A stretch of DNA of 64,000 nt. Source: Tubiluchus corallicola (taxonomy: Eukaryota > Priapulida > Priapulimorpha > Priapulimorphida > Tubiluchidae). Under the pieces are notes generated by a model, which had not been told where the DNA came from, did no database searches, and saw only the letters and a program-made list of their open reading frames with translations. Position numbers and translations under genes: made by a program. Below, one piece after another: positions 28,997 through 45,000 of the stretch; positions within the stretch are counted from its first letter, which is position 1, and each line of letters starts with the position of its first letter. The stretch covers positions 120,001 through 184,000 of the forward strand of contig JAQGDQ010000199.1 in the NCBI GenBank assembly GCA_030141605.1, given 5' to 3'.

Positions 28997-31900
28997 TCAA
29001 GTTTTTGCTGTCGTCCCTTTTAAATGTTTTGCATGCAAATCTTCACAGATTGGCCGCATTCTGGAAAATTCCGCTTGTATCAAATCACTCAGAACTTTCC
29101 TCTGTTCCATCTAAAATAAAAAAAACATGTATCAAAATTCAATTTAATCCAACTAAAATCAATCTTAAGGTAAGACTCCATGTGCTTGTAATACGTGATC
29201 CATAATGTGTGATGCGTATTGACCGTTTCCATATGTCAGTGAGCGCCATGTGCATTTACAAAGCTCACAGCACTCTCTAGTGACCAAAACTCACCTAGCC
29301 AGGAAGCTAATCAACAAAAACAGAAACTTGAAAACTTGCTAAATTATCTAGGCAACGGCGATTTCTTGTCTACATATTGCTGCGCGATGCACGCTCGGTT
29401 GATAGCGATTGTTTTTGAGTGAATATGGATCACCAATTGTGCATTATGGATTGCGCATTACATTCATGTGGAAACGTCCACGTATTTAAATAAAAACTGC
29501 TGTATATGCACTACGCATCACGCATTAAGTATACATGGAGTCCTGCCTTTATTTCTATAAATAAAGTCTCATAGAAAAGCATTTATTCCACTCATATGAT
29601 TTATTTTTTTTATTTTTTTATTTTCCAAATGTGATGAGATTATTGCTCGCTAATGAAGCTAGATGATTTGGACTACGCTGATGATATTGTACTGATATCA
29701 TCAACAAAGAATTACATACAACGTTGTTGGCATCCTTCTGTCTCGGAAGACAATGGAGTGTACCCCAAGAGAGTCAGTAATTGATCACATTGATGGAGCT
29801 GCAGGGTCGACTGTGGCTGAGCAGTGCGATCCTTGAACGTCTCCAGGGTGCACGTCTGGGCAAGGTGTATGGAGATCCAGAGTTGCCCAGACAACAGGAA
29901 CCCCCTCTCTTCCTCCCTGATGTAGTCCAAAGGAAAGCGGAGCAATACGTTTGGCACCAAGTTGGCTGCAGGAGCTGCCGGAGTCAGTGAGCATGCTGCA
30001 CTGGTCCGCTTTCGGGGATCCACTCCTGATTTGGAAGGTTTACTCCTCTACACATGGCCGTTGGTTACTTGACCTCCTCCGCCCTCTAGCTGTTGTGCAG
30101 CTCCTCCGCCTAGTGTCGAGATACAGTGTGGGCATCCCGCAAAGCCTACAGCACCTGGTATTGCTAGGCGGTCACCCATCCAAGTACTAACCAGGCTCTA
30201 CGTTGCTTAACTTCGGTGATCAGACGAGAACCGGTGTTTTCAACATGATTTGGCCGTAGCTTTTACATACAACAACAGACTGACAAACTTATTGAAAATG
30301 GTAAACCTCCAGGATTAAAAATCAATAAACAGAAATATAAACTGCTGAGGATGCGCATACAGACAACAATGATGAGCAATTGACAAAAGACGAGCCAATA
30401 GAAGATGTCGACAGATTTGAATATGTAGGTGCTATTGTCACAAAAGAAGGTGGCAGCAGAGTATACCTGAATAACAGACTTCCCAAAGTGACAACAACAT
30501 TCTTTTACCCCAAGAACATCGAAATTGTCAATAATATCATCCAAAACACAAAGCTGAAATACTTTATGACGTTAGAATCTTAGAGGAATCAATCTTAAAT
30601 TACAGTTTAGAAACACGGAAAATGGCATAAGGTAGGTAAATGCGAAGGTAAAAAACTAGTTGTGTTTTAAAGGAAATGTTGACGGTACATTCTAGAAACA
30701 AGATGGCAGGAATGCACCAGGAATGAAGTTGTTATGGGCAAATTACCCAATTACCCATATAATTTGTTTTTTATTTTTCCCGCATGAGGGAGCCAAAAAT
30801 TAAAGGGGACAAGTGGGCAATTGCTGGCAGAGTCGACTGGTTTTTTGCGGAGACTAATTTGTAATGTGGATAATGCAATTTTTATGTAAGAAATTTAATG
30901 TTATGCTTCAACCATATACAGCGTGCGCTCTCTAGCCGAATGAAGTAAGTGATTTGTAAATCTAAGTATATTTATTACATTGCAATTTTCTGTGTATTTT
31001 TTTTGTTCAAATTTCTGTATTTTTTGTTCAAATGGCATTACTACAAATTTTATGTATTCTTTTGTTTTTTCTCCTTTAGAAAATAAAGACTGCAGTAAAC
31101 ACCTTATGAATGGAACTGTCGGGTTTTGCTGTGTTAACAGAAGTTGTGTTAGAGAAAACCGGGACGACGAATATGAGAAATGAGGAGAACAGAAGTTCGT
31201 CAGTCACATCTTGTGAGGAAGGATGACTAAAACTGCGCAATCGCTAAGACCATCAGCTGTTGAAAAAAGATAAAACGTGGAACGTTAAAACGATTTTGAA
31301 GACAGACAGGCAACAAAGAGAGAGCAAGTTAGCAGGATGGAGGAAATGGAATGAAGCAAGGGCCTTTGCCATCAACCAAGCAGCGTGTAGAGGAAGTGTG
31401 TATACCACATAGTTCGAAGTGGACTGGTAATTGATTACTTATGGAATTATTTATCCATAATCTATAATAATCTACGGAGAGTGCTGTAGGAGTGGCAGTG
31501 GTAGTAGTCATGACAATGGTATCAGTAGCAGTAGCACCTTTTCCTTTCCTTTTCTTAATACAGACATATCCCAGTTTGCGGGCAAAAGCGGGGAGACGTC
31601 GGTCGGAGTGTGCCGATTGTTAGCATATACCGATACTAAGCTAATACAGTAGGCGCCGTGTGTTAAGACTCATGGTAATGCAAAATTAATCACCTAATTG
31701 TCTCAAAAATGTCTACTACGGACTGCTCCTGACATACAAGCTACATACAAGTCATTACATGCTGCTTGGTTGCACTGATGTAATGATGTAAACAAAGTGA
31801 CAGCCCGACTGTGTCCATAGTATGCGGGACTTTTAGCAGTCCATATTTTGTCCGATTTTTCCGATATATGTAAAAGCGAGATCCGGCAAATTGAGATACG

Positions 31901-42048: not shown

Positions 42049-45000
42049 ATGTCCACTAAACACAAATTGCTTGTACATTCAGCAAAAGAGGTAATCCAGG
42101 TTGTATCAGATAATGAAATGGTGTTACCAGGAAAGTTGATGCGTCGAATTTCAGTATTAAAATCTGATGAAAATCGTGGTATTGCTGATGGATATAGTGT
42201 CGTCGTAGACAGGTAATATAATAAGTGTATGCCTGGACCTATTCCTGCTTGTTAATGTAAATGAACGGAGGCAGTTGCAGTTATACCAGGTGGTTTTGGG
42301 CAATTGCGTCGATTGCATTTACAACAAAAACAAGGAAACTGATGAACAGTGTGTGATAATCCTCGAGAATCACCTAAAATGTATCATCTGCACCCAAGAA
42401 ACTTTAGGATTCATCACATTTACTATTTTCATTTGTTATTTTCTAAATCTGTAAATGTAATGCCAAAAAGAATTTGTAGATGTACTGATCCCAAAATTGG
42501 CCTTGTTATTTCTGTGGTCTACCTGTAATTAAAATTTTATTCACTTACTTTGTCAAGAAAATTTTGCTTAATGCAATGCAATTTTTTCGTCATGATGTGC
42601 TTCTGTTTGTTTACAGTGTCATTGCTATGTGCATGTGCACTGTGCAAGTATGTGCTTGTTTGCTGGTTTTGTGTGCATATTGTAAAGCTTGTTGTTACTT
42701 ACTGAATCTTACATTTTATCCAAAATCAGCCTATTGCTTTTGTAAACCAGTGTTTGCAATTAGACCAGTACAGGTCGGTCTCAACATCTCACCGGGATTA
42801 CACTTTCTTAAACGTCTCGGTCTTGGTATTCTATCTCCTCGAGAACGTAGGCAAATTTACAAAATTTACTTTTTATTGTCATTTCACAAGTTGTTGTCTG
42901 CTTCGTAATTGTAATAAACTGTAATTAGTATTTTTCCAAAACTGTTTTGTTGAATGTTTGTTTTAGTTGTTGTTTCAGCTATTATATTTAATTGCAGCAA
43001 TGGACTTATTGCTGATATTGGTACTGATGATGACATTAAGAGAAGTTTTGCTCGTACGGAATTTCAACATACCATTGATGCAAGTGGGAAGTGTATATTT
43101 CCTGGTTAGTTGATAAGGCCATATATATTTTCATACATACAATACTACGGCCAAATCACGTTGAAAACACCGGTTCACGTCTGATCACTGAAGATAAGCA
43201 ACATAGACCCTGGTTAGTACTTGGATGGGTGATCGCCTAGGAATACCAGGTGCTGTAGGTTTGCGGGATGCCCACACTGTATCTCGACACTAGGCAGAGG
43301 AGCTGCCAACGGCTAGAGGGCGGAGGAGGTCAAGTGACCCAATGGCCATGTGTAGGGGAGTAAACCTTCCAAATCAGGAGTGGAGCCCCGAAGGCAGACC
43401 AGTGCAGCATGCACACTGACTCCGGCAGCTCCTGCAGCCAACCTGGCGCCAAACATATCGCTCTTTGTATGGAACTTTGTATGGAACTTTGTATGGAACT
43501 TTGAAATTCTTTTCCTACCAATTTAAACCTTTAGTACCAAAAATCTACTGTTGCATCCAAACCTACAATCCCAGCATGCATCAGTAACTACTGCAGAATA
43601 ATAATGATTATTAAGCTTACTGATAAATTAGTGTAATCTATTTTGTGCTATATCAATGATTTCAAATATTTTCTAACAGTTTTCACCTACCCATACTTTT
43701 TCAAAACATAGATGTATTAACCGGAATTGCTTTCGTCTTTAATAGATAGCTAATTATTAATGCAGGAGTTTAAATTTTCAAGCTTTCAAAGTGCTAGTCA
43801 CTTACAGTAAGATTACATTTACGCAATGTAAAATTTCGTTTTTTAATGAAAAGTTTTGTCTTGCTCTGCAACACTCATTTTGCTTTGTCGCTTTGATTAG
43901 TGAATGAACAATTTGGTTTGTTTTCCATAGGTCTCATTGATTCCCATACACATCCCGTGTGGGCAGGTGATCGTGTACACGAGTTTAAAATGAAGGTAAT
44001 CTTTTACTAGTCAAACTAAATTTCTTTTTGGATTTGAATTTTTTTAGATCCATTTTTAGTCATTCAGATAGAGCGTTTGACAACATTTGACAATTTTTCT
44101 GCTCCTTTTCACATTTTTACTCTGGACGTTCCTTGACGTATGACAGCTGCTTTCCCTAATCACTTGTTATAACAAGAATGTCCACAGGTACCTCTATCAT
44201 TGCAAAAATTTTTTTTTAAGCCTTATTCATATTTTAGTATTGCTTATTAATCCAATTTTTCCCTAGGGCTGCTTATCTGAGGAGTTCTTTACTTGAAAAT
44301 TTTCCCTCTACTACAACTTCATCTAGCTTCATCTTTTTCTTATAGCTTCCTTCCTTGAGTGGTCATCGGTCTTGTTTATGACGATTTGTACAAAGAATTT
44401 TGTTTTCAATAATTCTGCTGCACGGCACACATTGAGCCAACTCAGAACTGCAAGGAAAGTAGTATGATTGCTTTGTTTTTAGCTAGCTGGAGCGAGTTAC
44501 ATGGAAATCCACGCCGCCGGTGGTGGAATCGGATTCACTGTTGAGCACACTCGGCGAGCCACTGAAGCGGAACTCTACGAAAGCTTGTGTGAACGATTAT
44601 GGCGAATGATAAAGTGTGGTGAGCTTGAGCGCAGTTTTTATATACAAAATAAATGTTTTTTGTTTATGAAATATATTTGTTCAAGCAAAAGTTTACCTTA
44701 AACACCAGGTAAATTACAGGGAATAAAATTCTCCTGTCTTAAGCAGGTGAATTTTAAACTATGTCACAAAAAATTCTCTATGTGGTTATATCCGTTAGCA
44801 CTACACTTCCCCCCGTTTGAAAGACTTATGTAATTGGGAAAGACAAGAAGAGAAATGATAAAATGTCACTAACTCACTCTCCCACCCTGCACAAAAAATG
44901 CCATTGTTTCACAAAAACAAATATTAATCTTCTTTGTGGTAATTTTTATGAATAAGTTTTTTTACTTTCTCGGCGAGCTGCAACATACAAGGATACTTGA

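Follow-up and report, generated by a model that had tools for sequence, protein, structure and literature searches.

The question raised by this locus is whether two 5S-like stretches of Tubiluchus corallicola DNA are copies of one retroposon and, if so, why they end in different tails. Short interspersed elements (SINEs) are built of a head, a body and a tail (PMC7245038). Those with a 5S rRNA-derived head make up the SINE3 class, which, in the part of that account available, is less numerous than the tRNA-headed SINEs and is found in vertebrates and some insects (PMC7245038). A 5S-headed SINE has also been reported from a fungus, again in a source available in part (PMC5063351). Throughout, "the window" denotes the whole stretch analysed, 64,000 nucleotides in length.

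At gathering scores, Rfam gave just two matches in the window, both to 5S rRNA, on opposite strands and 13 kb apart. Each covers the full 5S_rRNA model (RF00001, positions 1-120), with 98.9 bits for copy 1 and 90.2 bits for copy 2. In BLAST, 30259-29940 (-) and 43145-43463 (+) form an alignment of 321 columns with 92.5% identity (E 7e-132 and 5e-132). The shared block consists of a 5S head of about 120 nt and a non-5S body of about 200 nt, beyond which the tails differ (Table 1). No third copy was found within the window, the remaining BLAST matches at E<1 being 14-34 nt long with E values of 0.003 or worse. The sequence-only reading had placed copy 1 at 29723-30262 (-), which is exact to the base and equals the stretch between two 11-bp direct repeats, and copy 2 at 43144-43505 (+), the ends of which lie within 2 bases of 43145-43503. 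Its common head of 120 nt and body, given as about 190 nt, were recovered, and the tails do differ, the sequences parting after the 321 shared columns.

Table 1. Coordinates, within the window, of the two proposed SINE copies and of the features around them.
Feature	Position	Strand	Evidence
SINE copy 1, 540 bp, complete between target-site duplications	29723..30262	-	Duplication and empty site, 5S head, shared block
5S rRNA-derived head of copy 1	30143..30261	-	Rfam RF00001, 98.9 bits, model 1-120
Body of copy 1, common to copy 2	29940..30142	-	BLAST alignment
Tail of copy 1, 217 nt	29723..29939	-	Without match elsewhere in the window
SINE copy 2; 3' limit uncertain	43145..43503	+	Rfam, tandem repeat, BLAST alignment
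5S rRNA-derived head of copy 2	43143..43261	+	Rfam RF00001, 90.2 bits, model 1-120
Body of copy 2, common to copy 1	43262..43463	+	BLAST alignment
Tail of copy 2, a perfect 12-bp tandem repeat (3.4 units)	43463..43503	+	Tandem repeat
Target-site duplication TTACATACAAC, first	29712..29722	+	Perfect, 11 bp
Target-site duplication TTACATACAAC, second	30263..30273	+	Perfect, 11 bp
LINE reverse-transcriptase fragment, portion before the insertion	29638..29721	+	RVT_1 in joined frame
LINE reverse-transcriptase fragment, portion after the insertion	30264..30380	+	RVT_1 in joined frame
Tafazzin-like intron with copy 1, before the exon of the C-terminal match	29111..31931	-	Exon matches 32012-31929 and 29110-29018; donor GTAAGA, acceptor TTTTAG
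AMDHD1-like intron with copy 2	43105..43930	+	Exon matches 42999-43106 and 43930-43998; donor GTTAGT, acceptor CATAG

The clearest insertion anatomy is that of copy 1. Exactly 540 bp lie between its two flanking TTACATACAAC repeats, and the insert begins one base ahead of its 5S match. An equally good repeat anywhere in the 490-nt flank arose in 3 of 500 shuffles, and the duplication observed is rarer still by chance because it must also abut the element. When copy 1 and one repeat are removed, the flanks form a single open frame that matches positions 152-192 of Pfam RVT_1 (E 2.1e-5), at a score of 24.8 bits that lies under the Pfam cut-off of 29.6. Taken separately, the two pieces match no Pfam family at E values up to 1. 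An 80-residue frame at 30341-30580, which gave two weak, unrelated Pfam matches and no reverse transcriptase, looks like a later part of the same LINE. Since the flanks join into one reverse-transcriptase frame, the LINE is the older of the two elements, and copy 1 was retroposed into it in reverse orientation. This remnant is absent from the sequence-only reading; with a dead LINE around copy 1 and an exact empty site, the two insertions can be placed in order.

The heads and bodies of the two copies have diverged at an equal rate, with substitutions at 8 of 116 head and 13 of 202 body positions. Real 5S genes were rejected on this ground, the head having changed no more slowly than the body. 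CpG transitions account for 10 of the 21 substitutions, which suggests unselected, methylated DNA; the CpG observed/expected ratio of the window is 0.77. The promoter region is present and aligned in both heads, and the copies differ there at three sites in box A, none in the IE and one in box C (box limits set by eye). Compared with reference 5S sequences, the heads show 80-82% identity to that of human and 74-79% to that of Drosophila. Folded alone, they show only a modest excess of stability, 16 of 200 and 26 of 200 shuffles being at least as stable, and the best predicted fold of the copy 2 head differs from the 5S fold. A search for other RNA families over 29000-44500, at E values up to 1, returned two matches far below the family cut-offs, which were taken as chance.

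A 5S gene ends in a run of T residues. No such terminator was found behind the 5S part of the two copies, where GGCTTTGCGG and GGTTTGCGG stand instead; the sequence downstream of the 5S end is TTTGCGGG, with TTT at most. TTTT is absent throughout both copies, a weak observation for copy 1 alone, as 42% of its shuffles also have none. The first TTTT after copy 2 lies a few bases beyond its 12-bp array. The heads also have departures from the 5S consensus in common in the Rfam alignment, CAAA for CAUA and CCUA for CCUG, from which we infer that both descend from one source that was already changed, and not each from a 5S gene.

These observations bear on whether the copies are displaced units of the host 5S rDNA array, that is, a 5S gene with its spacer. 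Such units would have a 5S part of full length and good score with the body directly behind it, as seen here. Against them stand the insertion of copy 1 into a LINE with an 11-bp duplication, its start at the 5S 5' end and not somewhere arbitrary within a repeat unit, the missing terminator, the like decay of head and body, and the changes common to both heads. Displaced rDNA is thus very improbable, and was set aside on the insertion anatomy, the lack of a terminator and the shared 5S changes, as seen within the window. A 5S-bearing LTR element (TRIM) such as Cassandra or Ajax, which also carry 5S sequence (PMC10886601, available in part), is scarcely credible, because the only two 5S stretches of the window lie on opposite strands 13 kb apart, so that neither copy has an adjoining second 5S-bearing terminal repeat on the same strand, and because the duplication of copy 1 is 11 bp as compared with the 5 bp made by Ajax (PMC10886601).

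It is therefore very probable that one SINE3-type retroposon gave rise to both stretches, presumably by way of an RNA polymerase III transcript and LINE machinery. The features found are those of SINE3: a 5S head at the 5' end, a non-5S body in both dispersed copies (n=2) and, at copy 1, a target-site duplication. The 5S-headed SINE proposed from the sequence alone is thus supported by head, shared body and insertion anatomy. RNA polymerase III would start at the promoter boxes inside the 5S-derived head and, the 5S terminator having been lost, would read on past it to yield an RNA of head, body and tail. The endonuclease and reverse transcriptase of a putative LINE partner would then take up the tail, and the RNA would be copied into the nicked site by target-primed reverse transcription, giving the 11-bp duplication at copy 1. 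Further copies of the element presumably exist. Six exact pattern searches among viral and prokaryote contigs gave no matches, as expected for an animal.

The difference between the tails is a separate matter. By BLAST, the tail of copy 1 has no counterpart and no LINE match in the window. Its three sense frames are open over 69 to 111 codons, and six translations of the two copies gave no Pfam match at E values up to 10. A conserved 3' hairpin was also sought, and the 3' end of copy 1 folds no better than shuffled sequence. This tail is presumed to be LINE-derived. At copy 2, no duplication above chance was detected, the best score being equalled in 328 of 500 shuffles and in 245 of 483 other stretches of the window. 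The best candidate pair, CATACATACAAT and CAAACCTACAAT (43132-43143 and 43558-43569), agrees at 10 of 12 bases and is not claimed as a duplication, because shuffles and other window stretches often reach its score.

An about even chance is given to two subfamilies, in which one head and body were joined to two LINE-derived tails, that of copy 2 ending in the 12-bp repeat. The sequences part abruptly, copy 2 passing straight into 3.4 perfect units, and LINE-type 3' ends often look like a perfect tandem array at such a break. PxSE4 and PxSE5, with a common 5' end and different 3' ends, provide a precedent (PMC8010984, available in part). However, the window holds one example of each tail, and copy 2 lacks the duplication that would prove its 3' end. 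At rather less than an even chance, copy 2 may instead have been inserted as an element of the copy 1 type and have since lost its tail and right-hand duplication; the 12-bp repeat would then belong to the local sequence. This would agree with the lack of a duplication above chance at copy 2, but the perfect tandem array stands exactly at the break, a point at which a random deletion would not necessarily stop. A single family with an internal deletion would fit the two copies as well. That one 5S-headed SINE lineage changed its tail and kept its head and body, in an animal group without SINE3 in the available parts of the literature examined, is considered unlikely.

A lead noticed afterwards concerns the target site of copy 1 (GTTGTATGTAA in the sense of the element), which agrees with the 12-bp unit of copy 2 at 9 of 11 bases. 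Among the 127,978 11-mers of the window on both strands, 482 (0.4%) match the unit equally well, copy 2's own repeat included. If the match is real, the two RNAs would have had one 12-bp tail in common at their ends, and copy 1 would have been primed by its match to the target.

Each copy had been assigned to an intron of one of two neighbouring genes, and this was confirmed for a tafazzin-like gene (-) and an AMDHD1-like gene (+). Each of the two introns is bounded on either side by a plausible splice site, and genes and introns alike seem to be of animal type. The gene names come from tblastn queries with the human tafazzin and AMDHD1 proteins. Among chance hits at a very loose cut-off, seven matches to tafazzin are collinear along the - strand between 40447 and 29018; three have E values of 1.5e-28, 1.4e-10 and 5.8e-10, and four of 0.006 to 0.68. 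The matches that bound the intron with copy 1 are weak (E 0.13 for 32012-31929 and 0.006 for 29110-29018), and the Pfam Acyltransferase family was matched by one tafazzin-like exon, near 37.8 kb (E 3.4e-7). For AMDHD1, 11 matches are collinear along the + strand between 42049 and 55831 (E 3.7e-19 to 0.081). One AMDHD1-like exon matches a solved imidazolonepropionase (E 3.7e-4), and a Pfam scan of three such exons found no family. Copy 2 starts about 40 bp past the end of an AMDHD1-like exon (43104). Both copies are oriented in the sense of their host gene, and both insertions look like neutral passengers of introns. An exon-like frame with a pentraxin domain (E 1.3e-18) at 61733-62182 (-) probably marks a third gene.

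Several other repeats were seen in the window. Another LINE reverse-transcriptase remnant lies at 60495-61036 (-), with two RVT_1 matches (E 3.4e-5 and 6.2e-4), both under the Pfam cut-off. One repeat family has two copies that are 93% alike (5540-5839 and 24110-24409) and a third relative at 15332-15601, assigned by eye on the similarity of its translated frames. Another repeat has two direct copies, at 16466-16765 and 45679-45992, with 94% similarity in the two segments recovered; the second copy lies between exon matches of the AMDHD1-like gene. An inverted pair (22720-22946 and 63276-63502) is 96% complementary over a distance of 40 kb. Inverted arms of 286 nt, 75% alike (33181-33466 and 35213-35498), enclose a 1-kb AGAG/AGAC array; as a guess, arms and array may form a non-autonomous DNA transposon whose inner repeat has expanded. 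Long minisatellites with units of 34, 41, 98, 31 and 25 bp occupy 884-2885, 7402-8479, 12764-14317, 51559-52334 and 58356-59745 respectively, and in the first of these three frames are open over 660-694 codons.

The family is taken as a further member of SINE3, a kind already known and rather uncommon. No general picture is altered by it. In the literature searched, available in part and with most subscription papers outside the search, no described 5S-headed SINE could be linked to this window. AmnSINE1 also bears tRNA sequence, whereas ARAGORN found no tRNA gene in this window. A 5S head is present in some members of the DeuSINEs (AmnSINE1, OS-SINE1), as it is here (PMC3747384). The SINE3 elements of zebrafish (SINE3), Tribolium (SINE3-1_TC) and a moth (HaSE3) likewise have a 5S head, an unrelated body, a tail and a duplication of retroposon size (PMC7245038, PMC3272025). 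Among the relatives of HaSE3, duplications measure 19 and 8 bp, and HaSE3.1 has none (PMC3272025), in which it resembles copy 2 with none above chance. A parallel to the two tails is seen in Plutella xylostella, where PxSE4 and PxSE5 are 5S-derived, are both 389 bp long, have their 5' 250 bp in common and end in (TGA)n and (ATGT)n (PMC8010984). In the available parts of these accounts, PxSE4 and PxSE5 number 4415 and 1952 copies, in contrast to one copy per tail here, counted in the window only (PMC8010984). Because PxSE4 and PxSE5 share 250 bp and differ at their 3' ends, the two-tail pattern already has a precedent, and a further family with two tails would help to show how often SINEs change LINE partners.
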